Shown here piece by piece: positions 4,589 through 30,453 of a stretch of 64,000 nucleotides of DNA; the first letter of the stretch is position 1, and the number at the start of each line of letters is the position of its first letter. Source of the DNA: Paracrocinitomix mangrovi (GTDB taxonomy: Bacteria; Bacteroidota; Bacteroidia; Flavobacteriales_D; Crocinitomicaceae); the NCBI RefSeq assembly GCF_019740355.2, contig NZ_CP091819.1:1798001-1862000 (forward strand). Reading direction: 5' to 3'. The notes under the pieces were generated by a model. That model had not been told where the DNA came from and did no database searches. It worked only from the letters and a program-made list of their open reading frames with translations. The position numbers and the translations under genes were made by a program.

Positions 4589-4972
4589 ATGCCTAACTGG
4601 ACTGACGGTGAAGACATATTAATCGGAGAAGATGAGTATATCTCATGGATCAACTGGGATCTTGACAAAGTGCAAGTGCATGATATCGACTATCTAATTG
4701 ACCCAAAAAATAAGTTTTGGAATTCTCTTGAAACCTTATGTGTAGCAGAATGTTGTGGACTTGATGCTTTTGATTGGACAACGGAAAATGTTACCAAAGC
4801 ATACTTGGAGTGCGACCGAGAGGAGTTAACAAAAACCCTCGAGGATGCAATTAATGTAATTGAGAACAGGACAGAAAATGTTGTGAGCTCTACTCGATTG
4901 AATCAGCTATTCGACAGGCATGTTTTCATTAACCTACTGAAGCACTTAAAAAAACAGTGCATAACACTATAA
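4589..4972 (+). CDS. Hypothetical protein, DUF6331-like (cassette gene)
   Basis: The 127-residue acidic soluble protein has the motif LCVAECCGLDAFDW near residues 50-63, which I associate with the DUF6331 family of unknown function. A tryptophan-rich N-terminus (NWTDGEDILIGEDEYISWINWD) precedes it. The start is 10 nt after the GTT core. The final residues CITL and the stop are read from the left arm of the next repeat (AGTGCATAACACTATAA). This cassette shows the clearest boundary match: the 5' GTTATGCACT (4579-4588) and the 3' AGTGCATAAC (4956-4965) are exact reverse complements over 10 bases. Confidence 0.65.
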   Translation: MPNWTDGEDILIGEDEYISWINWDLDKVQVHDIDYLIDPKNKFWNSLETLCVAECCGLDAFDWTTENVTKAYLECDREELTKTLEDAINVIENRTENVVSSTRLNQLFDRHVFINLLKHLKKQCITL

Positions 4973-4990
4973 ATAAAGTTCATGTCCTCT
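4956..4990 (+). repeat. attC-like left half, right side diverged
   Basis: The left arm AGTGCATAAC, a 9-nt spacer and AAAGTTCATGTCC match the left side of the full repeats. Downstream to 5070 the sequence no longer matches the family apart from weak similarity (ATAAATTACTGCACATAAAGTAAC). Confidence 0.55.
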
Positions 4991-6105: not shown

Positions 6106-7152
6106 ATGAAAAATATAATCCTCATAGTCTCAACGTTTGTTCATCTCATAGGATACTGCCAAATTGATACAACTAAAGCTGTTTACAAGGAATTATATGA
6201 TCTTTCATTAACGGAGTATGAAGCCATTGAATCTGAGATAGGTTATCACATTCAAACAGATAATGTCAAAATGCATTATATCAGCCTTGGTGATTCTACA
6301 GATATGCCGTTAATATGGATTCCCGGAACAGGGAGTTCTTCTTGGGAAATTCTAAATTTCAAAGACTCTTTAATGAGTATGGGATTACAAATAATCAGTA
6401 TAGATTATTACGGACATGGACAAACTCCTATGCCTAAAGAAGAAAAATCTATTTATCACATTGCTGATGATATAAAGTTCCTAATGGATAGCCTACAAAT
6501 CAAAAAGGCAATTATTGGCGGTTGGTCTCGTGGTGGATATATCGCATCTGCATTTTATGACACTTACCCCGAATCAGTTCTTGGATTAATGCTTGTGGAT
6601 GGTGGTTCTGCTAATGCGCTAAATCCGAGATATAAAATGAATAGAGACACTTTACGTGAAAAATATAAAGAAGCGCAAATTCCAAAAGATTTACTAGTAA
6701 CCTACAATACAAAATTTGAAGCTTTTTGTGCTTTGGCAGATACATCAAATAAAGTCAGTCAGGCCTGGATACTTGATGGTCTTAAAATTGGCCTTAATGG
6801 TAAATGGGGATATACCTCAGATGTTTGGCAGGCGGTTGCAAATGAATCTGTTGAATCAATGCTGAATGCTGTAGAATCACCAACATTAGCACCTCTTTTA
6901 TCCTCATCAACTTATCTTATGCAACCACTAATAGTGTACCGAAACCTATCGGTTCCAATGATTATAATTGACCCGGTATCTGAAGGTGAAACTTGGCAAA
7001 ACTACACGCCTGATAATTCCAAATTAAAAGCAATGCACCCTGAACTAATAGAACACCGCATTTATGAAAACACACAACATCATGCTCACTTTCAAAGACC
7101 ACAACAATTCATAAATGACATGAAATTATTGATTGAAAAAATTAATAATTGA
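6106..7152 (+). CDS. Secreted alpha/beta hydrolase
   Basis: A signal peptide (MKNIILIVSTFVHLIGYCQ) is followed by an alpha/beta hydrolase fold. The oxyanion segment WIPGTGSSSW is near residue 71, the strand IISIDYYGHGQT near 97, and the nucleophile elbow GGWSRGG has Ser141. A candidate catalytic acid is in the MIIIDP strand near 285, and the C-terminal His lies in QHHAHFQRP near 325. The substrate is unknown; related proteins include esterases and peptidase S33 members. The length of 348 residues suits the family. It is the largest gene of the cassette-like region, flanked by degenerate half-repeats on both sides. Confidence 0.8.
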   Translation: MKNIILIVSTFVHLIGYCQIDTTKAVYKELYDLSLTEYEAIESEIGYHIQTDNVKMHYISLGDSTDMPLIWIPGTGSSSWEILNFKDSLMSMGLQIISIDYYGHGQTPMPKEEKSIYHIADDIKFLMDSLQIKKAIIGGWSRGGYIASAFYDTYPESVLGLMLVDGGSANALNPRYKMNRDTLREKYKEAQIPKDLLVTYNTKFEAFCALADTSNKVSQAWILDGLKIGLNGKWGYTSDVWQAVANESVESMLNAVESPTLAPLLSSSTYLMQPLIVYRNLSVPMIIIDPVSEGETWQNYTPDNSKLKAMHPELIEHRIYENTQHHAHFQRPQQFINDMKLLIEKINN

Positions 7153-7202
7153 CATCATTGTTTCTCCAATGAAATAACAAACATGTTATCAATTGTGTTA
7201 GA

Positions 7203-7233
7203 TACAGTAAATTGCTAGCCTTAAGCAAATGAT
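7203..7233 (+). repeat. Last degenerate attC-like right half
   Basis: CAGTAAATTGCTAGCCTTAAGCAAATGAT matches the canonical right arm (AGTAAATTGCTAGC is exact) with a damaged core. It is the rightmost member of the repeat family seen in the window and marks the approximate end of the array. Confidence 0.55.
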
Positions 7234-7240
7234 ATCATCA

Positions 7241-7759
7241 ATGTCGAAAAGAGTCATAGTTTTTTTAGTTCTAAATCTCATTTCATTTTACTCACTCTGC
7301 GAGTCTAACAATCCTTATAACTCATTTTCGCAAACCGATTCACTGGTATTTGTTAACACGTTAAAAAATAGATCTTTTGTATTGTTTAAGGGGGATAAAG
7401 TAAAAGTAAAGGGTCCCGAAAATTCAATTAAAGGTAGTTATGAAAGTAGCACAGACTCCTCATTTTATATTAAGGATAAAGCTAGCGAGCTACATGAATT
7501 TATGTCCAATGATATATCTTCCATTACATTATTCAATATGAAGAAAAAAGGAAGAAAGATCTATACCTTTCTGGCAGTATTTGGACTTACAGGAGCAATA
7601 GTTTGCACTGGAACTCTGACGGAATACTCAAATTCTAGAGCTTGGTCAATAGCCGGAATAATATTTTTCACTGGAATGAACCAAACTGGGTTTTGGCTGA
7701 AAAGGAGAACAATAATCCATCAGAACAAAGGATGGAATTTAAATGGTAAAAAATTTTAA
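7241..7759 (+). CDS. Membrane-associated hypothetical protein
   Basis: The ATG at 7241 is preferred over 7229, which overlaps the repeat. The N-terminus MSKRVIVFLVLNLISFYSLC is a signal peptide or anchor. A small beta-rich domain follows (FVLFKGDKVKVKG, SIKGSYESSTDSSFYIKD), then a basic KKKGRK stretch and two hydrophobic segments near residues 108-122 and 133-148. The pattern of a short KVKVKG-type beta domain before a membrane hairpin is common in Bacteroidota proteins of unknown function. It is the last plus-strand gene before the minus-strand DsrE-like gene and the last one linked to a repeat remnant. Confidence 0.6.
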   Translation: MSKRVIVFLVLNLISFYSLCESNNPYNSFSQTDSLVFVNTLKNRSFVLFKGDKVKVKGPENSIKGSYESSTDSSFYIKDKASELHEFMSNDISSITLFNMKKKGRKIYTFLAVFGLTGAIVCTGTLTEYSNSRAWSIAGIIFFTGMNQTGFWLKRRTIIHQNKGWNLNGKKF

Positions 7760-7817
7760 TCAAACCATTCTACAACACTTTAACGCAAATGAAAACAAAT
7801 TTTCTCCTCAAGTTTAT

Positions 7818-8447
7818 TTAAGGTTGAACATAAATATACCCTTCCATTTGTAAATCTACAATGGCAGATATCCCTGCAGTTACAAAACCAATTCCCGGAA
7901 TCATTTGGTTTAAACTTACTTTTTTGGAATGCGCTGTGTTTTGACAAAAGTAGATCTTTACTCCGGGCTCAGCCACCAGCTTTTCAACTTGTGATTGAAA
8001 AGGATTATCTGTAGCATGTTTTTCAACACCATTTTCCGGTTCATTATTTAAAACAAGCGGCCAGCCACCACCGTGTATTATCACTACAAACTCATAATTT
8101 TTAGCTTTAATTCCGTGCGTGATTTTTAAATCATTGATATGATTAAAAATATTGCCAATTCCGTAAGGTTTAGCGCAAGTTGAATCTGAACACAATTTAT
8201 TGAGCTGATACACAACTTTTATTTTTTTTGTGTTTTTCAAAAAGCGTGTAGCCTTCATGGTTCCGTCTCCGAACTTCTCATCCAAACTTTGAGCACTTCC
8301 GTTTTTATCTTTCCATTTAGAAGTCACAAAATTTTCTGCGTTGTGAGATTTGTTTACTGCTTTTGTTGAATCTTGTGCTTGTGAAATTGTATTGGTGAGT
8401 ATAAAAACAGTTGTAAATAATATTAAAGTCAATCTATTAATCATCAT
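7818..8447 (-). CDS. Periplasmic DsrE/DsrF-like family protein
   Basis: After a signal peptide (MMINRLTLILFTTVFILTN), the C-terminal ~140 residues match the DsrE-like fold: strand KVVYQLN near 77, FVVIIHGGGWPLVL near 119, an FQSQVEKLV helix, KIYFCQNTA with Cys168, and the end IVDLQMEGYIYVQP. DsrE-type proteins take part in sulfur or persulfide handling. Periplasmic versions in Bacteroidota are uncharacterised, so the reaction here is unknown. A second Cys pair lies at CSDSTC near residues 86-91. This first minus-strand gene marks the end of the cassette array. A start at the second Met (8444) is equally possible. Confidence 0.75.
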   Translation of the reverse strand: MMINRLTLILFTTVFILTNTISQAQDSTKAVNKSHNAENFVTSKWKDKNGSAQSLDEKFGDGTMKATRFLKNTKKIKVVYQLNKLCSDSTCAKPYGIGNIFNHINDLKITHGIKAKNYEFVVIIHGGGWPLVLNNEPENGVEKHATDNPFQSQVEKLVAEPGVKIYFCQNTAHSKKVSLNQMIPGIGFVTAGISAIVDLQMEGYIYVQP

Positions 8448-8582
8448 TTCTTAAGTGAAGTAATTTTATTAGACGCGATAATAACTTATTCCATACTTTA
8501 ATACTGTGATGTTTATTACATGGCTATACCATAAATATCCTGAACACCTTATATTAGTAGATTTAGATAAACTTTTATAATA

Positions 8583-8972
8583 ATGATCATAGAATTCGGA
8601 GATGAAGTGAAATTTGTGGACAACCAAACAACACAAAATGCAGGAGTAGCTTCCAAAACCGGAGTTTGTTTGGGTTTTACAACTCCATCTGTTTCCAATA
8701 TCGAATTTATTGGTGACACAACATCTGACTATGCTATTTCAGTAGAATTAGATGAAACAAAAGAAACCATTTGGACTACTCAAGACTTGGTTGAATTTGT
8801 AAGTCATGGAGAAGGTCAGGTGATAGAAATTGGCAATATAAAAGCTACCAGAATGGCTGATGGATCATGGAAAGAGGAAAAGATAATGGCTGATGGATCA
8901 CAGAAAAAGGAAAAGATAAATCCCGAGAAGGAAAAAACCACATGGTTTAAAAAGTTATTTGGTAAAAAATAA
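8583..8972 (+). CDS. Hypothetical protein with an 11-residue tandem duplication
   Basis: The 129-residue soluble protein has an N-terminal beta-rich domain of about 80 residues (FGDEVKFVDNQTT, GVCLGFTTPSVS, DYAISVELDE, IWTTQDLVEFV) that looks like an SH3/KOW-type barrel. It ends in a charged lysine-rich tail with WFKKLFGKK at the C-terminus. Residues 91-112 are a tandem repeat MADGSWKEEKI / MADGSQKKEKI, encoded by two adjacent 33-bp copies (8853-8885 and 8886-8918) that differ at three bases. The family occurs in Bacteroidota but I cannot name it. No partner is evident. Confidence 0.6.
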   Translation: MIIEFGDEVKFVDNQTTQNAGVASKTGVCLGFTTPSVSNIEFIGDTTSDYAISVELDETKETIWTTQDLVEFVSHGEGQVIEIGNIKATRMADGSWKEEKIMADGSQKKEKINPEKEKTTWFKKLFGKK

Positions 8973-9000
8973 ATCGACTATTTTAAAAATCTCAGCTTAA

Positions 9001-9444
9001 ATGATGAAATCAAGACAATTAAATAATTTACTTATTGGATGTATAGCATTATTTACGCTAACCGCATCTTGTAAAAAAGATGATGGTCCTAAAAGTAAAG
9101 CTGAAGGAATTGTCCAAAACGGAAGCTGGCACATAAGCAAATACACTGATACCGGAATTGATTCTACCAGTCAATTTACGGGCTACAGTTTTACATTTAA
9201 TGAATCTGGAAGTGTAAATGCCAACAAGGGAACGGATAATTACAATGGCAATTGGCATATTTTAGACAGTAGTAACGTTACTGCAGAAAATTTATACCTG
9301 ATAATTGATTTTAATCTTACCAATGAATTGGCAGACTTAAATGAAGATTGGTTTTTTCTATTATTATCAGATTCAAAACTTGAGTTGAACGACCTCAACG
9401 GCAACAATCTTGGAAATCAATACCTCACTTTTGAGCAGAATTAA
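9001..9444 (+). CDS. Lipocalin-like lipoprotein
   Basis: A lipoprotein signal ends in LTASCKKDDG, with Cys24 the probable lipidation site. The remainder (about 120 residues) shows a lipocalin-like series of strands: NGSWHISKYTDTG, SFTFNESGSV, NYNGNWHILD, DWFFLLLSDSKLELND. Many Bacteroidota lipoproteins of this size have such a beta-barrel with a W-containing first strand; no ligand is known. The start may be the first or the second of two adjacent Met codons. It is followed after 53 nt by a membrane protein gene. Confidence 0.65.
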   Translation: MMKSRQLNNLLIGCIALFTLTASCKKDDGPKSKAEGIVQNGSWHISKYTDTGIDSTSQFTGYSFTFNESGSVNANKGTDNYNGNWHILDSSNVTAENLYLIIDFNLTNELADLNEDWFFLLLSDSKLELNDLNGNNLGNQYLTFEQN

Positions 9445-9483
9445 GACGGTTTCATTAAAAGCATTTTTATAGTTTTACTCCAC

Positions 9484-9491
9484 TATATTTG
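9484..9491 (+). promoter_or_regulatory. Candidate -7 element TATATTTG
   Basis: TATATTTG matches the Bacteroidota -7 consensus TAnnTTTG. It lies only 7 nt upstream of the ATG at 9498, which would give a leaderless or almost leaderless transcript. No convincing -33 TTG was seen. Confidence 0.35.
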
Positions 9492-9497
9492 GAACCA

Positions 9498-10157
9498 ATG
9501 AGCGAAAAGTCAAAAGTTAACTGGAAATCGATAATTGCGCAAGGACTAGTGCTATCCATTAGTATTTACGTTCCATTTTTTCTTCAAAACTGGTATGCCA
9601 ACAAACAATCCAATGAGTTAAATGAACAGTACAAAGGGTACCTTGTTGAAGATTTACAATCTGACTTGGCAGTTATTGATTCTATGCTAGTTTCAAATCA
9701 AACTTATTTAGACTCAGCAATGTCAATTTTTGTGGTGCCGGTTAATGATAATGATGGTTTACTTAAAAGAGCTGAAAAAGCTTTGATGTTAGGAATGACG
9801 GATGAATTTTATCCGGTCACTGACATTGAAACATATATTGACCAATTTAGAGAACACGGCGGAAAACGTGATCTCAAGCTAGTTAGAGAATTAGGAACAC
9901 TTAAAATCTCCTTCCAAAAAATATTCATGATCGACAAAAGAAGAGAAGAATATCGCAAAGAATATTATACGCCTATGTATCTATCCAAATATTCAATAAA
10001 AGGAGGTTTTCCTGAGGTCACCGATCCGGAATATTTTGGATCAGATCATTTCATAAATACGGTTTCATTACTATATAGACTTTCAATTCAAACAAACAGC
10101 ATTTATGAAAGAGCACAGGAACAATGTCAAACCGTGCTAAACACTTTGGAAGATTAG
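9498..10157 (+). CDS. Single-pass membrane protein, DUF6090-like
   Basis: The ATG at 9498 is chosen over the in-frame TTG at 9489, which is part of a -7-like element. A short cytosolic N-terminus is followed by one transmembrane helix (IIAQGLVLSISIYVPFFLQNWY) and an extracytoplasmic helical region. The layout resembles DUF6090-type Bacteroidota proteins, which start with a helix ending in an NW motif and then E..YL..L..DL; here this is QYKGYLVEDLQSDL. The function is unknown. It could form a small group with the neighbouring lipoproteins. Confidence 0.55.
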   Translation: MSEKSKVNWKSIIAQGLVLSISIYVPFFLQNWYANKQSNELNEQYKGYLVEDLQSDLAVIDSMLVSNQTYLDSAMSIFVVPVNDNDGLLKRAEKALMLGMTDEFYPVTDIETYIDQFREHGGKRDLKLVRELGTLKISFQKIFMIDKRREEYRKEYYTPMYLSKYSIKGGFPEVTDPEYFGSDHFINTVSLLYRLSIQTNSIYERAQEQCQTVLNTLED

Positions 10158-10199
10158 TTTATTTAACTAGCTTTAAGTGAATTATTCTTTTAACCCAAA

Positions 10200-10802
10200 A
10201 TGAAAATTTATCACATTCTGATTTTTCTGATGCTGTTTGCATGCAGCGAAAATTCAAGCCAGCAAGAAGAAGTAAAAGAAAATCATACTCATGAGACTCC
10301 TTTTGAAGAGTTTATTTCAAAAATTCCCGCTTATGATTTTCCTGTTAAAATGACTTGCAACTTTGATCGCCTTGTAGAAGATAAAGCATTTACAGATTAT
10401 CTTAATTTCTATCCTGAACAAGGAAGATTAATCGCCAAACTTAACTCATCATCTGAATACGCATTGGTTATTTTTGATTTTGCTTGCGATTATTCTTGTC
10501 CTATTCTATACTCTTATGATAAAAAGGGGGACAGAATTGACTCTTTAAATTTGACTCCCGGACAATGTGCCGAGGACCCTTTTTTGAGCAGCAGAAATTG
10601 GTTTATTATAAATGAAGATATTAATATTGAATTGGTTGACACCTCTGATTATTTTTCAAAAGGAGACAATAAATTGATGGATTCAACGACTATTGAAATG
10701 AAATCATACAAACTGAATTCAGATGGTCATTTTGAAACTGTTACCCATACAATTGAGACTTTTCTTAATGATTCAACAAAGCAAGGTTTAGTGATTGATT
10801 AA
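10200..10802 (+). CDS. Lipoprotein of unknown function
   Basis: The signal sequence MKIYHILIFLMLFACSE has its lipobox ending in Cys15. The mature protein of about 185 residues is acidic. It contains DFACDYSCPILYSYDKKG (two Cys near residues 96-100) and another Cys in TPGQCAEDP, so it may carry a disulfide. No family is recognised. It overlaps the upstream part of the next small membrane gene's region and could be translated with it. Confidence 0.6.
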   Translation: MKIYHILIFLMLFACSENSSQQEEVKENHTHETPFEEFISKIPAYDFPVKMTCNFDRLVEDKAFTDYLNFYPEQGRLIAKLNSSSEYALVIFDFACDYSCPILYSYDKKGDRIDSLNLTPGQCAEDPFLSSRNWFIINEDINIELVDTSDYFSKGDNKLMDSTTIEMKSYKLNSDGHFETVTHTIETFLNDSTKQGLVID

Positions 10803-10815
10803 TTTGTTAATACTG

Positions 10816-11034
10816 ATGCCGATTTTTGAAGTGATAGGAGAAATAATTGTAGAAATACTATTTGAAAATATACTCTATTTTCTGCTGTCCGTTCCAGGTG
10901 CTTTTTTCAGATTTATCATCTCGCGATTTTGGATGTCCAAGAGAAGTTTAAAAGATTTTATAAAAGATGATCCTATGATGAATGGCATTGTTGGATTAAT
11001 TGTTTTCATCTTAATCGGCTTAATTATCGTTTAA
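10816..11034 (+). CDS. Small membrane protein
   Basis: The ATG at 10816 is chosen over a TTG at 10795 inside the previous gene. The 72-residue product has two hydrophobic helices: a long amphipathic or hydrophobic N-terminal region through FLLSVPGAFFRFII, and a C-terminal helix GIVGLIVFILIGLIIV. Between them is a basic and acidic linker (SKRSLKDFIKDD). No function can be given. The 14-nt gap to the preceding stop suggests co-transcription. Confidence 0.55.
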   Translation: MPIFEVIGEIIVEILFENILYFLLSVPGAFFRFIISRFWMSKRSLKDFIKDDPMMNGIVGLIVFILIGLIIV

Positions 11035-11160
11035 CAGTTAATTAAATTCTCCCAATCAAACCTCATTACTCACTTTTCTGAATTGTTGATAAAAAGAATT
11101 TATTTCACCCAAAACCATGGGCAATAATTTTTACATTTATCCCTTCAAAATTGATTGATT

Positions 11161-11775
11161 ATGCATATTGCTGTAGCTGGAAATATTGGATCGGGTAAAA
11201 CAACCTTAACTAAGTTATTAGCGAAACATTACGGATGGGACACCCATTTTGAAGATGTTGAGCAAAACCCTTATCTGAATGATTTCTATGAAGACATGCA
11301 ACGTTGGTCTTTCAATTTACAGGTGTACTATCTCAACAGCAGATTTACCCAAATTCAAGAAATTAAAGACAGTGAAAACAATGTAATTCAAGATCGTACC
11401 ATCTATGAAGATGCTTACATCTTTGCTCCCAACTTACATTCAATGGGATTGATGACTACAAGAGATTTTGAAAATTACTTCTCATTGTTCAACCTTTTAG
11501 AGCACTTTATTTCTGCTCCGGATGTTTTGATCTACTTAAAAGCTTCTGTTCCTACTTTGGTCAATCAAATCCAAAAAAGAGGACGTGAATATGAAGAGTC
11601 TATCCGTTTAGATTACTTAAAAAGACTAAACGAAAGATATGAAGCGTGGATCTCTACTTACGACAAAGGAAAATTGATTGTAATTGATGTAGACAACAAC
11701 AATTTCCATGAAAATGACGAAGATCTTGGAAAAATCATCAACTCAATTGATGCCGAGATCAACGGATTATTCTAA
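11161..11775 (+). CDS. Deoxynucleoside kinase (deoxyadenosine/deoxyguanosine kinase family)
   Basis: The ATG at 11161 gives MHIAVAGNIGSGKTT, with the Walker A loop GNIGSGKT at residues 7-14. Other dNK marks are the substrate-site ERQ-equivalent region, DRTIYEDAYIF near residue 79 (the DRS-type motif), YLKASVPTLVNQIQKRGREYE near 124 with the LID arginines, and the usual length of about 205. The enzyme phosphorylates deoxynucleosides with ATP in nucleotide salvage and is cytosolic. An in-frame TTG two codons upstream exists, but the ATG fits family N-termini. It stands alone, upstream of engB. Confidence 0.9.
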   Translation: MHIAVAGNIGSGKTTLTKLLAKHYGWDTHFEDVEQNPYLNDFYEDMQRWSFNLQVYYLNSRFTQIQEIKDSENNVIQDRTIYEDAYIFAPNLHSMGLMTTRDFENYFSLFNLLEHFISAPDVLIYLKASVPTLVNQIQKRGREYEESIRLDYLKRLNERYEAWISTYDKGKLIVIDVDNNNFHENDEDLGKIINSIDAEINGLF

Positions 11776-11817
11776 TTCATAAATCCATTTCAGCCTAAAT
11801 TCTTCTGTTAGTTGTTT

Positions 11818-11846
11818 TTTGAAAACAGCTATAAACCCTATCTTCG
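11818..11846 (+). promoter_or_regulatory. Promoter of engB
   Basis: The TTTG at 11818-11821 and TATCTTCG at 11839-11846 fit the Bacteroidota -33/-7 pattern (TTTG, about 17-20 nt, TAnnTTyG). The ATG of engB follows 6 nt later, so the transcript would be close to leaderless. Its overlap with the -33 element is one reason to reject the upstream in-frame TTG at 11819 as start. Confidence 0.5.
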
Positions 11847-11851
11847 CACCC

Positions 11852-12460
11852 ATGGAGATCAAAACAGCCAAATTTGTAATCAGTAATACTGATGTCAGTA
11901 AATGTCCCAACCCTACTATGCCTGAATATGCTTTTATTGGCAGAAGTAATGTGGGTAAATCTTCATTGATCAATTCAATGACCAATATTAAAGGTTTGGC
12001 TAAAATTTCTGGAAGACCTGGAAAAACACAATTGATCAACCACTTTTTAATTAACGACAATTGGTATTTGGTGGATTTACCCGGATACGGTTACGCCAAG
12101 ATTTCAAAATCTCAAAGAGAAAAATGGCAGAAGTTTATTGAAAAGTACATCCTCACTCGCCAAAATTTAATGAATGTCTTCGTTTTACTGGATTCAAGAC
12201 ATAAACCACAGCAAATAGACATGGAATTTATGCAGTGGTTAGGAGAACATGGCATTCCGTTTAGCATGGTATTTACAAAAGTAGACAAGCTAAACACAAG
12301 TGAAAAAAGCAAATTTTTACCCGCTTACAAAAAAGAGATGCTTCAAATTTGGGAAGAAATGCCTCCACATTTTGTTACTTCATCTGTAAGTAATGAAGGA
12401 ACTGAGGAATTACTTAATTACATTGATGAAGTGAATCCTTATTTTGAATACCAGGGTTAA
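11852..12460 (+). CDS. engB: Ribosome biogenesis GTPase EngB (YihA/YsxC)
   Basis: The ATG at 11852 gives [19 protein letters not shown], the normal N-terminus of this family. GTPase motifs are all present: G1 GRSNVGKSS near residues 30-38, G3 [11 protein letters not shown] near 76, G4 TKVD near 145, and the G2 loop GRPGKTQ near 60. The 202-residue length is typical. EngB binds GTP and takes part in assembly of the large ribosomal subunit; it is usually essential. It follows the kinase gene with its own promoter. The identification is firm. Confidence 0.95.
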
Positions 12461-24987: not shown

Positions 24988-25038
24988 GGTTCGTGATACA
25001 TTTCTTACCATTCCCAAATTGAATACTGTTGTTCGTGA
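24988..25038 (+). promoter_or_regulatory. Candidate LytTR-type repeat upstream of the sensor kinase gene
   Basis: GTTCGTGA occurs at 24989-24996 and again at 25031-25038, 42 bp apart, which is twice the 21-bp period expected for LytTR repeats. A weak middle copy (ATTCCCAA) lies at 25010. The same core, GTTCATG, forms the clear 21-bp repeat before the downstream secreted-protein gene. The site is 53 bp upstream of the kinase ATG. Confidence 0.45.
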
Positions 25039-25090
25039 AACGGGGCTTTCTTAACAATTTAATTTCATTAGTTTTTGGTAATTTGGTCGG

Positions 25091-27970
25091 ATGCGTTTCT
25101 GGGTATTTATCATATCGTTACTTCCCTATTATCTAATTGGTCAACAGCCCAGTCATTATCGCATTGGAGAAGATCAATTTTCAGGAATTGATATATATGA
25201 TCTGTATCAAGATAAGAATGACTACATATGGATAAGCTCAAATGATGGTTTGTACAGTTATGATGGCTATCAATTCACAAAGTTTGCGAATACGCAAATG
25301 AAGAATCGTTCGCTATTCAATATAGTTGAGGACAAAAACGGAGCAATATATTGTAATAACTTATATGGTCAAATTTTCAAAGTAGTTGAGGATTCTTTAA
25401 AATTAATTTACACTGTTCCAGATTCCCTCAAATATGAGAATGTATATTACAATATTGATGATCAGAACAATATTGTTTTTGCTTCAAATGGTGTCTATCG
25501 TGTAGAAAATAATGAACCTGTATTTTTAAAATCAAACAACAAATTTGCCTGTCACATACCAAAATCATCTGATGGGGAACTTGCCATTTACAGTGGTCAT
25601 GACCAGAAGATTTATTATTTAAAAAATGGAGAAATAAGGCTCAAACCGCAATCTGAAATTCCTCTTGAAAGCATTTTCAACTCTTTATACATATACCTTG
25701 ATATAAAATATGGAAATGAATATTTTCATGAACACCGCTCTACCAACTTATTCAGATTCCAAAATAACCAATGGGAACAAATAATTAACGAAGAAGAAAA
25801 TACCGAATACAATACTTTAAAATGGATTTTTTTAAAAAATTGTATTCTAAGAGCAAGTTTCAATGGTGGAGCTAATGCATTTGACTTGAACGGAAATCCA
25901 TTGTTTGATGGGAATTTAATATTTCCAAATTTTCAATTGTCTTGTGGCTTTGTTGATAGAGAAGGAAATATTTGGTTAGGTACACTTGGTAAAGGAATGA
26001 TTATAGTTCCAAACTTAAACATCATTGATTTTAAAAACCACCCTTTATTGAGAGATGATGATTTGCTTAGTATTACCTCAGATGAAAATGGCAACATTTA
26101 CGTAGGTGGCTTCAGTGGAAATGTATATCAATTTAAGGAAAACCAAGTTCAAACTTTGGTAACTAACAATTTTAGAGTAGAATTTCTCCAATACGTCAAT
26201 GCCAATGATCATCTTTTACTTGGTCAAAATAAGTATGACCTATCCAAAGATGAAATTGTAAGCAACCGAATCTCAAGTGTAAAAGGATGTGCCCAAATTG
26301 GCCCGACAGAATTCTTGATGGCAACAAATGTTAATCTTAAGTATTTAAGTATTGCTTCAAACCCCTTTTTAAATGCAGAAATAAGCCAATTTAAAAATTT
26401 AGGCCAGGACCCTAGTAAATTATATGAATTTAATCTTGGTAGATGTACTACTGTTGCTTATGACAAGGATAAAAATGAAATTTGGGCAGGCACAAGTAGT
26501 GGCGTCAAGCTGATAAAAACAGACACAATAATTTCTATTAACAAAAATGAAGAACCTATTGCAGCCATCAATATAGAATTAAGCGATAAACAAGTTTGGA
26601 TAGCCACCCCAAATAACGGGATATTGATTTTTGAAAATTACCGGGTAGTAGATGAGTTGAATGATAAGAATGGATTACTTTCAAATGAGATAATTACCAT
26701 GAAGAAAAATGATGATCTGATGCTTATTGCAACAAAAAAGGGTCTGGTCATTAGGAATTTAAAGAATCATGAGACAAGTTACATGACAATAATGCAAGGA
26801 TTAAATTCCAATAGAATTCTTGATCTGGAATTGGTGGGAGATAAATTATGGTTGATAAATGGAGAGACAATTCAAATAATTGGTTTAAAAGACATTTTAA
26901 ACAACAACACTAAACCACAGATTGAAATAAGATCTATTAAGGTGAATGATGAGGAAATTGATCCGTCAAAAAGTGAATTTGACTACAACGAAGATCAGTT
27001 TGAATTTCATTTTGTATCTATTGCTTTTAGACATAGAGGCACTATGACTTATCAATATCGATTAGAAGGTGTAGATGAAAATTGGCAAACCACGAACTAT
27101 CTAAACAACTCAATTAGATATACTTCAATTCCTCCGGGAGAGTACGCTTTTACAGTTAAATCTGTAAACACGGATGGGATATCTTCCAATCCGGTTGAAT
27201 ACAAGTTTAAAATTGCTGCTCCTTTTTGGTCAACCTGGTGGTTTTATAGCTTATGTATTATAGGAGTAATATTAATCATTGCAGGATACTTTCTTATAAG
27301 ATTGTCAATTGTAAAAAAACGTCTGCAACTGGAAAAGCAGTTAAAAGCATCAGAAGTAACAGCTATAAAAGCACAAATGAATCCGCACTTTGTATTTAAC
27401 GCCCTAAACTCAGTGCAGGATTTAATTATGCAAAATGACATCCGAGAATCAAATATTTACTTAGGTAAGTTTGCAGATCTGATGCGCAAAACTTTGGATT
27501 ATTCAGGAAAGGATAAAATTTCATTAAGAGAAGAGATTAATCTTTTAAAACTTTACTTAGACCTTGAAAAGCTGAGGTTTGGTGAAGATTTTATATTTGA
27601 ATTATCTGAAAATTTAGGTCAAAATGATGCGGACGAAATTATGATCCCTCCAATGTTACTGCAACCGTATATTGAAAATGCAATAAAACATGGTCTTTTA
27701 CACAAAGAGGGAGATAAAAGATTATCTATTAATTTCTCAGTAAACAACTCGCATCTAATTTGTGTAATCACAGATAACGGAATTGGAAGAAAAAAATCAT
27801 CCGAAATTAAAGATCGTCAATCTTACGTACACAATTCTTTTGCTTCAGAGGCTATTCAAAAAAGGTTGGATTTAGTCAATACATTTGAAGATCAAAAAAT
27901 CACTTTAGAAATTTCTGACATTGATACAGAAGGTACGGGAACTAAAGTAGTTGTGAAATTCCCAATATAA
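25091..27970 (+). CDS. Membrane sensor histidine kinase: beta-propeller, Y_Y_Y domain and LytS-type kinase
   Basis: A signal peptide (MRFWVFIISLLPYYLIGQ) leads into a large extracytoplasmic part of two-component propeller repeats (IYDLYQDKNDYIWISSNDGLYSYDG near 35, FVDREGNIWLGTLGKGM near 291, IWAGTSSGVKLI near 466). The Y_Y_Y domain follows near residues 640-705 (YQYRLEGVDENWQTT, IPPGEYAFTVK). One transmembrane helix is at ~712-740. The cytoplasmic kinase has the LytS-type H-box QMNPHFVFNALNS, with His766 the phosphoacceptor, and an ATPase domain (YIENAIKHG, DNGIG). Its partner is very probably the LytTR regulator at 29698. The signal sensed is unknown. Confidence 0.9.
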   Translation: MRFWVFIISLLPYYLIGQQPSHYRIGEDQFSGIDIYDLYQDKNDYIWISSNDGLYSYDGYQFTKFANTQMKNRSLFNIVEDKNGAIYCNNLYGQIFKVVEDSLKLIYTVPDSLKYENVYYNIDDQNNIVFASNGVYRVENNEPVFLKSNNKFACHIPKSSDGELAIYSGHDQKIYYLKNGEIRLKPQSEIPLESIFNSLYIYLDIKYGNEYFHEHRSTNLFRFQNNQWEQIINEEENTEYNTLKWIFLKNCILRASFNGGANAFDLNGNPLFDGNLIFPNFQLSCGFVDREGNIWLGTLGKGMIIVPNLNIIDFKNHPLLRDDDLLSITSDENGNIYVGGFSGNVYQFKENQVQTLVTNNFRVEFLQYVNANDHLLLGQNKYDLSKDEIVSNRISSVKGCAQIGPTEFLMATNVNLKYLSIASNPFLNAEISQFKNLGQDPSKLYEFNLGRCTTVAYDKDKNEIWAGTSSGVKLIKTDTIISINKNEEPIAAINIELSDKQVWIATPNNGILIFENYRVVDELNDKNGLLSNEIITMKKNDDLMLIATKKGLVIRNLKNHETSYMTIMQGLNSNRILDLELVGDKLWLINGETIQIIGLKDILNNNTKPQIEIRSIKVNDEEIDPSKSEFDYNEDQFEFHFVSIAFRHRGTMTYQYRLEGVDENWQTTNYLNNSIRYTSIPPGEYAFTVKSVNTDGISSNPVEYKFKIAAPFWSTWWFYSLCIIGVILIIAGYFLIRLSIVKKRLQLEKQLKASEVTAIKAQMNPHFVFNALNSVQDLIMQNDIRESNIYLGKFADLMRKTLDYSGKDKISLREEINLLKLYLDLEKLRFGEDFIFELSENLGQNDADEIMIPPMLLQPYIENAIKHGLLHKEGDKRLSINFSVNNSHLICVITDNGIGRKKSSEIKDRQSYVHNSFASEAIQKRLDLVNTFEDQKITLEISDIDTEGTGTKVVVKFPI

Positions 27971-27987: not shown

Positions 27988-28017
27988 ACAGTTCATGAAC
28001 TCAAGTCTGCAGTTCAT
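27988..28017 (+). promoter_or_regulatory. LytTR-type response-regulator binding site (direct repeat)
   Basis: ACAGTTCAT (27988-27996) and GCAGTTCAT (28009-28017) form a 9-bp direct repeat with a 12-bp gap. The published LytTR-family consensus is a 9-bp direct repeat of the form [TA][AC][CA]GTTN[AG][TG] with a 12-13 bp gap. The first copy fits all nine positions and the second fits eight. A candidate promoter begins 10 bp downstream, so an activator position is plausible. The likely regulator is encoded at 29698-30453. Confidence 0.7.
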
Positions 28018-28027
28018 GGATTTGGTA

Positions 28028-28058
28028 TTGTAATAATCTTTCTAGCGATTCAAATTTG
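28028..28058 (+). promoter_or_regulatory. Candidate promoter of the secreted-protein gene at 28134
   Basis: TTG at 28028-28030 and CAAATTTG at 28051-28058 are spaced by 20 nt, close to the Bacteroidota -33/-7 arrangement (the first base of the -7 deviates from TAnnTTTG). A weak -7 next to an upstream direct repeat suits an activated promoter. Confidence 0.45.
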
Positions 28059-28133: not shown

Positions 28134-29519
28134 ATGAACAAGTTAATATTATCAGCAGGACTAATATTGAGTACACTTAGTCTAAAAGCACAGGAAACAC
28201 TTTATTACTTCGCAAAACCGGTAAATGTTTGTGACAATGGACAAATAACTGGTCTTTCAAAAAAAATAACATTAAAAAGAGATGGTGGAAATGCAACCAT
28301 TCAATTAACAAGCATTGATTGCAATAAATCTATCGAAACAATGAGTCTTGGGAAAGTAGAGGGAAAAGGAGATGCCTTTTTTTCCAAAAAAGACAAACAG
28401 GGAGTTATTGTTGAAAATGAAACGTTATACTATGTTGTTGAAAAAGATGGAAAGTACAACATTGTTGTAGGTGCGCATACAGATAAAAAAACAGCAAAAA
28501 CTATTGATGCAAGTGCAGGTCAAAGCACATATGAAGCTTCTCTGAACAAATTCTCAAGCATGATAGGCTCTAAGGAGAGTGAGGCTGCAAATGCAGCTAA
28601 AATGGCTAAAGTTGTAGCTTTAAACGACGCTAAATACTCCGATAAATATGGTGTTTCTGGAATGTATTTTTTCTCTGATCTAATTGGATACGGAAAATCT
28701 ACTTCAGGTTCAAGAGGAGGACCTAAAGATTATGAGCACTATGCAAAAGGAGCCAATTTAGAATTTAAGGAATCTGATAACGAAAAATACAAGTCAACTC
28801 TATTTGTTCATTACGGAGATGGTAAAAAAATTGAAGGTTATATGAATAACACCAATGAAGTAAGAGAAGGTAAAATGACCGTTATGGATGCCAATTTTGA
28901 ATTCGGTCAAACTGAATTACCTTTCAGATACGCTACAATGATAGAGAAGGATCTATTTTTAATTAGAGCAGAAGGATATGACTATTATGCTCAAGAAGGT
29001 TCTGGTCTCGATTGTTCTCAAATTGTTAGCTGGAAAGATGGAAAAACTAATGTTTTCTTAATGGGAAAAAACAAACAAAGAATTGATGAACTAAAAAATG
29101 ATCCCGATCAATTGATAAAAGTGATTCAAGAATCCATCACTAAAAGTTGCAATGCTAGAAGAAATGCTGAAAAACAAGCTTTACCTAGACAAGGAATGGT
29201 AAGCAGTTCTATTAAATCAAAAGCTACACAAGCTGCTAAAGATTTGGCTGCTCAATACAAATGGAAAAGTAGAATTGTACAGTATTGTTATATCACAGGT
29301 AAAGAGTGGAGTACTTTGAGAAATAGAAATACAGGAGTTATTACCGGAAGAGAAATTGCCGGAGTAATGGTAACTAAAACTCCTGATGGATTATGCGAAT
29401 TCTCAAATATCATAATTGGACAGAGATACGACGGATCTAACTACGGGAACACTTATATCGGCGGAGCTACAGGAATTAGAATCCCTACTGATTGTTCAGG
29501 TTCAACAAAGTATAAGTAA
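28134..29519 (+). CDS. Secreted protein of unknown function, probable target of the neighbouring LytTR system
   Basis: The signal peptide is MNKLILSAGLILSTLSLKAQ. The mature protein (about 440 residues) has an N-terminal beta-rich part with ETLYYFAKPVNVCDNGQ, which ends at a lysine-rich segment. The middle holds AKYSDKYGVSGMYFFSDLIGYGKST and a repeated YDYYAQEGSG-like part. The C-terminal region has many basic residues (SCNARRNAEKQALPRQG, KWKSRIVQYCYITGKEW) and ends in polar glycine-rich sequence. I see no known domain and no T9SS sorting motif. It sits between the histidine kinase and the LytTR regulator and has a LytTR-type repeat upstream. It may be an effector or a signal carrier of that system. 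Confidence 0.7.
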   Translation: MNKLILSAGLILSTLSLKAQETLYYFAKPVNVCDNGQITGLSKKITLKRDGGNATIQLTSIDCNKSIETMSLGKVEGKGDAFFSKKDKQGVIVENETLYYVVEKDGKYNIVVGAHTDKKTAKTIDASAGQSTYEASLNKFSSMIGSKESEAANAAKMAKVVALNDAKYSDKYGVSGMYFFSDLIGYGKSTSGSRGGPKDYEHYAKGANLEFKESDNEKYKSTLFVHYGDGKKIEGYMNNTNEVREGKMTVMDANFEFGQTELPFRYATMIEKDLFLIRAEGYDYYAQEGSGLDCSQIVSWKDGKTNVFLMGKNKQRIDELKNDPDQLIKVIQESITKSCNARRNAEKQALPRQGMVSSSIKSKATQAAKDLAAQYKWKSRIVQYCYITGKEWSTLRNRNTGVITGREIAGVMVTKTPDGLCEFSNIIIGQRYDGSNYGNTYIGGATGIRIPTDCSGSTKYK

Positions 29520-29580
29520 TCTAATCGAGAAATTTCTCAAAGTATTTAACCTTGAACTTACTGATTAAACCCTAGGAAAA

Positions 29581-29614
29581 GAGGAGGTTGTTATTTTTAA
29601 CGCCTCCTTTTTTT
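29581..29614 (+). terminator. Intrinsic terminator after the gene at 28134
   Basis: GGAGGTTGTTA-TTTT-TAACGCCTCC forms a stem with one wobble pair, followed by seven T's. It separates the secreted-protein gene from the downstream regulator gene, which should therefore have its own promoter. Confidence 0.8.
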
Positions 29615-29697: not shown

Positions 29698-30453
29698 ATG
29701 TCTAAAATCAAGGCGATCATCATTGACGACGAAGAGCGAGCGAGACGCGTATTAAAAAATATGCTGAACGAATTCTGCAAAGATGTGGAGGTTATTGATT
29801 CTTCCTCCAATGTTCCGGATGGTGTTTTAGCCATCAATAATCTTAAGCCTGATGTCGTTTTTTTAGATATTGAAATGCCTAATTACTCTGGATTTGAATT
29901 GCTAGGATTTTTCAGAGATGTGGATTTTGAGATTGTTTTTGTTACAGCTTACAGCCAATATGCCATTCAGGCTTTTGAAGTGTCGGCGGTAGATTATTTA
30001 TTGAAACCTGTTCAGGTAGAGCAATTAGAAAATGCCATTCAAAAAGTAAAAGACAAAATCAACATTTCCAGCATGCAGGATAGGCTGGACACATTGAAGG
30101 TTAACTTATCAGGAAGCCAAATTCAAAAAATAGCTGTTCCCGTTTCTGATGGATTGGTATTTGTAAAAACAGAAGACATTTCACACATCAATGCAGATGG
30201 TTCCTATTCTAAAATATATCTGGCAGATGGAACCGATATGCTGGTTAGTAAAAAATTAAAGTATTTTGAGGAAATGCTAGAAGGAAAAGGCAACTTTTAC
30301 CGCGTTCACAGGTCACACCTGGTAAATCTTTCTTTCGTCAGAAAATACAATCGTCATCAAGGACAAGTAGAATTGGAAAACGATCACAAAGTAAATGTAT
30401 CCAGAGAAGGTAAATCAGCTTTTGAAGATACCTTGGCAGAATTTCATGGTTAA
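29698..30453 (+). CDS. LytTR family response regulator
   Basis: The N-terminal receiver domain has the acidic pair DD at residues 10-11, the phosphorylatable Asp57 in VVFLDIEMP, Thr in VFVTAYS near 82, and Lys in LLKPVQ near 103. The C-terminal LytTR DNA-binding domain contains IAVPVSDGLVFVKTEDISHINADGSYSKIYL near 144 and FYRVHRSHLVNLSFVRKYNR near 200. The length of 251 is typical. It should be phosphorylated by the LytS-type kinase at 25091 and bind direct repeats such as the one at 27988. The stop overlaps the convergent ferredoxin gene by four bases. Confidence 0.92.
   Translation: MSKIKAIIIDDEERARRVLKNMLNEFCKDVEVIDSSSNVPDGVLAINNLKPDVVFLDIEMPNYSGFELLGFFRDVDFEIVFVTAYSQYAIQAFEVSAVDYLLKPVQVEQLENAIQKVKDKINISSMQDRLDTLKVNLSGSQIQKIAVPVSDGLVFVKTEDISHINADGSYSKIYLADGTDMLVSKKLKYFEEMLEGKGNFYRVHRSHLVNLSFVRKYNRHQGQVELENDHKVNVSREGKSAFEDTLAEFHG

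Follow-up and report, generated by a model that had tools for sequence, protein, structure and literature searches.

A predicted activator site next to a LytTR regulator

A direct repeat with a 21-bp period, lying upstream of a secreted-protein gene in the window (the whole 64,000-nucleotide stretch of Paracrocinitomix mangrovi DNA analysed here), is predicted with good confidence to be the site at which the neighbouring LytTR response regulator, encoded at 29698, acts as an activator. The distal half-site ACAGTTCAT (27988..27996) and the proximal half-site GCAGTTCAT (28009..28017) were read from the forward strand and are separated by a 12-bp spacer. The first-pass annotation had these coordinates and the period exactly right, and the distances that it gave also hold: the repeat lies 116 bp before the ATG of the secreted protein at 28134 and 10 bp before a candidate promoter, the first element of which is a putative -33-like TTG (28028..28030, forward strand). 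The -7-like element CAAATTTG (28051..28058, forward strand) has the Bacteroidota form TAnnTTTG and is 20 bp from the TTG. A sigma-70 promoter scan gave no more matches than shuffled sequences; the sigma-70 model is inapplicable to Bacteroidota promoters. The intergenic region between the kinase stop (27970) and the ATG is 163 bp long, and when the three intergenic regions of the cluster were compared, 21 was the best lag only 5' of the secreted-protein gene.

LytTR operators are described as pairs of repeats, direct or inverse, each 9-11 bp long and with 11-13 bp between them (PMC4847170). With 9-bp half-sites, a 12-bp spacer and a position just upstream of a predicted promoter, the same as in the related locus L044, the window repeat belongs to the known LytTR operators by these sequence criteria (PMC4847170).

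The kinase, secreted-protein and regulator genes

The predicted target gene (28134..29519) encodes a protein of 461 aa with a signal peptide. It had been annotated as flanked by a LytS-type kinase and a LytTR regulator, and Pfam confirmed both. The kinase (25091..27970) matches Reg_prop, Y_Y_Y and His_kinase (PF06580), has a propeller and Y_Y_Y sensor domain, and retains the PHFVFNAL H-box. The regulator (29698..30453), the predicted binder of the repeat, matches Response_reg and LytTR and retains D57 and the RVHRSHLVN stretch. A His_kinase protein and a receiver-LytTR regulator thus flank the secreted-protein gene, as expected of a LytS/LytTR two-component system; all three genes are on the forward strand. 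A hairpin with a T-run at 29576..29614 (forward strand; -19.5 kcal/mol, z -4.6) is a probable terminator, is absent from the list of the terminator pattern scanner and, lying 3' of the secreted-protein gene, indicates that this gene is probably monocistronic.

The C-terminal domain of the secreted protein, about 115 aa long, is conserved in Bacteroidota. Neither the 461-aa protein nor this domain matched a Pfam or NCBIfam family, and a sequence search found no relative of solved structure. The predicted structure of the full-length protein had a pLDDT of 40, and the model of the C-terminal domain, with one helix and five strands, was of moderate quality (pLDDT 68.5). Comparison of the domain model with the PDB gave no significant match (best E 0.14); the best, non-significant matches were NTF2/ketosteroid-isomerase-like and monellin-like.

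From its domains, the propeller-type LytS kinase would sense an envelope signal and phosphorylate the regulator. Two regulator molecules would then occupy the two half-sites, two helical turns apart and on one face of the DNA, and, bound directly upstream of the Bacteroidota -33/-7 promoter, would recruit RNA polymerase. The recruited polymerase would transcribe the monocistronic secreted-protein gene, as the fixed 47-bp geometry described below suggests by likeness to activator-type LytTR sites.

The repeat is conserved in a same-genus locus

The nearest relative of the regulator (77% identical) is encoded in a same-genus genome (G003), at locus L044, where the gene order is that of the window: kinase, secreted protein, regulator. 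The intergenic region of L044 is only 107 bp long and holds ACAGTTCAT-N12-ACGGCTCAT at the same place, with a period of 21 and at an unchanged distance from the -7 TTTG. The distal half-site is thus identical and the second half-site has 2 changes. In a longer frame, ACAGTTCATGAAC and ACGGCTCATGGATTT are kept with the 21-bp period; L044 reads TACAGTTCATGAAC, then the second half-site ACGGCTCATGGATTT 21 bp on, then TTTG at the same offset. The -33-like TTG and the -7-like element (CACATTTG in L044) also stand at the same offsets. Conservation of the repeat in orthologous loci had been set as a test beforehand, and both half-sites and the period passed it in this one same-genus orthologue. Two other same-genus genomes held no close relative of the regulator, and the genus comparison therefore rests on one pair. 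The proposal that the repeat is a LytTR binding site gains support from the conservation in L044, and other clusters share both its period and its promoter offset.

The 21-bp period and the promoter offset recur across clusters

The promoter offset of the window site is d = 47, the last G of TTTG being base 47 when counting begins just before the proximal GTT frame. In the window, in L044 and in most other sites, the end of TTTG follows the start of the proximal half-site by 47 bp. Upstream of the secreted-protein genes of the strong set, the mean self-match at lag 21 was 8.57, compared to 6.79 (sd 0.23) at other lags; for other genes of the same loci, taken as controls, it was 7.36 compared to 6.97. 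A scan over lags of 12-40 and offsets of 20-90 had its maximum exactly at lag 21 and offset 47, which 1 of 1000 control draws from other genes of the same loci reached. In a weaker homologue set, lag 21 stood above that set's own other lags, and at the fixed offset the set did not beat the control draws.

An independent second set was picked only by similarity of the regulator, using the gene after the regulator. Here 44% of the regions had a self-match of at least 10/12 at lag 21, compared to 2.5%, and the signal peaked at lag 21 and offsets of 44-47. After thinning to LytTR domains less than 60% identical, 9 of 45 regions had at least 10/12 at lag 21, compared to a background of 0.9% for the other lags (p = 3.7e-10, binomial). 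When the second set was considered by itself after thinning, lag 20 was stronger than lag 21. Sites collected with an iterated matrix had half-sites of the form [CT][CT]RTTCANNAA, with lag 21 in 37, lag 20 in 13 and offset 47 in 38 of 50. The matrix was fitted to the sites that it scores, so these counts describe the pattern and do not test it.

The half-sites differed between LytTR clusters, with period and promoter offset the same. Among the best-conserved intergenic parts of eleven Flavobacteriaceae loci, which come from several genera, were the repeat and the TTATTTTG box. There the secreted-protein promoter carries TTCAGAAAA pairs and the kinase promoter TTTAGAAAA/TTACAGAAAA, with TTTG at about the same offset in both. 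The half-site TTYAGAAAA, common to both promoters, fits control of the target together with autoregulation.

A weak candidate for a second operator lies before the kinase gene of the window (24988..25041, forward strand), with GTTCGTGATAC at 24989, CATTCCCAAAT at about 25009 and GTTCGTGAAAC at 25031, giving periods of about 20-21. GTTCGTGATAC and GTTCGTGAAAC resemble GTTCATGAAC, and a TTTG at 25074-25077 stands at the same offset from this candidate. It is possible that 24988-25077 is an autoregulatory operator of the kinase gene; a search of L044 did not find its counterpart, which makes the assignment tentative.

A recurring kinase, regulator and secreted-protein module

Searches with a profile of the C-terminal domain gave relatives in 33 of the 399 genomes from the order and in 21 of the 395 from the class. 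In 19 of the 23 loci whose domain match had E<1e-20, a LytS kinase was present together with a LytTR regulator, counting neighbours within the fetched 10-19 kb of each locus; a random 16-kb stretch would hold a LytTR match about 7% of the time (18 matches in the 4.37-Mb genome). No clear upstream site was seen in L050, L048 and L069. The window genome has further copies of the secreted protein beside two other LytTR systems (L037 and L038). One of these, L037 (G000:C1:3487000-3505000), contains two secreted-protein paralogues and a divergent kinase/regulator pair, and its 21-bp repeat, CATTTAGAAGAA/CCTTTAGAAGAA, stands about 20 bp further from the -7 box than those of other clusters.

We propose, as a reading that could equally well hold or fail, a Bacteroidota-wide module made up of a propeller-type LytS kinase, a LytTR regulator and an uncharacterised secreted protein. 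Each system would have its own 20-21-bp repeat, set at about 47 bp from where the -7 TTTG ends; the repeat would lie at the secreted-protein gene and, in some lineages, at the kinase gene as well. Many regulator-target pairs would then be readable from sequence, and the sensor may in turn be under feedback from the secreted protein. Such a sensor/regulator/secreted-protein module appears undescribed in the literature searched. Signal-peptide proteins encoded after regulators in many Bacteroidota loci are not only of the window's family: in L113-L192, the gene that follows the LytTR regulator at a distance of about 90-140 bp often encodes a signal-peptide protein of varying type. In another locus, L039, three consecutive secreted-protein genes (7146-11971) each have a GTTTACAAA-like 21-bp repeat upstream; the fetched stretch holds no LytTR regulator, and a distant one may serve these repeats.

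Comparison with known LytTR systems

The YpdA/YpdB system of E. coli is, like that of the window, a LytS/LytTR pair acting on a direct repeat, GGCATTTCAT, whose TTTCAT core resembles GTTCAT; its target, unlike that of the window, is a transporter gene. YpdA/YpdB acts at a sigma-70 promoter and its kinase has no propeller domain. AgrA of S. aureus is likewise a LytTR response regulator binding two direct repeats upstream of a promoter. The Agr system has an AgrC-type kinase, a quorum peptide and a Firmicute promoter.

The autoactivation operators of LRS systems (HdrR and relatives) also consist of two direct repeats, each of 9 bp and with 12 bp between them, that precede the first promoter element by about 10 bp; LRS promoters differ in repeat sequence but share a fixed length, spacing and position of the repeats (PMC6193735). 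An LRS comprises a regulator and a membrane inhibitor in an autoregulated operon, whereas in the window a LytS kinase is paired with a response regulator and the secreted-protein gene is separate. Assignment of the window system itself to the LRS class was considered and rejected because its regulator carries a receiver domain and is partnered by a histidine kinase. Within the phylum, the published predictions that come closest are the LRS-like promoters of B. thetaiotaomicron and B. ovatus, where repeats lie 11 bp upstream of TGTA/TGTG-19 bp-TATCTTTG (PMC6193735, Table 3). These share phylum and promoter type with the window site but, predicted as well, have 11-bp repeats with a period of 22 and a membrane-bound LytTR regulator, and no LytS kinase.

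In the literature searched, mostly without subscription papers, we found no operator that had been defined by experiment for a LytS/LytTR pair of Bacteroidota, yet the window genome alone has 18 LytTR matches. The fixed geometry (a period of 21 or 20 bp and a distance of about 47 bp to the -7 TTTG) offers a simple rule for assigning targets to orphan LytTR regulators and suggests that secreted proteins are the main local output of these regulators. Since the layout recurs in many relatives, the sequence by itself often allows a regulator to be matched with its target.

Which protein binds the repeat, and with what effect

We name the adjacent regulator as the binder because of linkage, and repeat, target and regulator are indeed tightly linked in most loci. 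It is unlikely, though conceivable, that this LytTR operator is served mainly by another LytTR regulator of the genome or shared by several. The 18 LytTR matches of the genome would allow for this, and half-sites of different clusters share the core [CT][CT]RTTCANNAA. Regulator similarity predicted site similarity only among close relatives; for regulators less than 60% identical, site similarity did not follow it (Mantel r 0.10, with 293 of 2000 permutations as high), so that distant regulators give no specificity signal. Against sharing, locus-specific half-sites recur at several promoters of one cluster, and the 4.37-Mb genome contains a single copy of the exact repeat, CAGTTCAT-N13-CAGTTCAT.

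That a LytTR protein binds here and represses is, in our judgement, somewhat less likely still. The repeat is close to the promoter, and repression by a LytTR protein is known from CoxC, whose three repeats overlap the -35 element (PMC11347149). The window repeat, however, does not overlap the promoter: 10 bp separate its end from the -33 element downstream, the spacing strongly favoured in autoactivated LytTR (LRS) promoters (PMC6193735), which makes activation likelier than repression.

The distal half-site region contains a perfect 12-bp palindrome, AGTTCATGAACT (27990-28001), of which GTTCATGAAC is kept in L044, and a dimeric helix-turn-helix regulator might read this palindrome instead of the direct repeat. 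We think this very improbable: the second half-site is not palindromic, and non-palindromic half-sites elsewhere (GTTTACAAA, TTCAGAAAA and CATTCACTAAA) keep the 21-bp direct period.

Chance matches and genome-wide scans

With up to 1 mismatch allowed, a search with the degenerate consensus pair gave 4 matches in the window against an expectation of 1.65; genome-wide it gave 131, compared to 258 for a reversed control pattern, so a match to the consensus alone is not significant. A chance repeat in an AT-rich intergenic region, which so common a loose consensus might suggest, is nonetheless the most improbable explanation, given that the repeat is conserved in L044 at an identical position and that lag 21 is in excess across clusters.

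The first-pass annotation had come with a suggestion that a two-copy motif scan of the whole genome would define the regulon. In a genome-wide scan, half-sites were found at 15 places with at most 2 mismatches. Among the 12 best, inspected singly, none besides the window site had the repeat with TTTG at the expected offset, and most sit in long open frames. In the lack of a second such place, a wider regulon cannot be claimed.

Elsewhere in the window, 4954-4983 reads CAGTGCATAACAC..ATA..TAAAGTTCAT and resembles G000:C1:2142147 and 2336927. It looks like a short dispersed repeat in which the match to the LytTR pattern is accidental.
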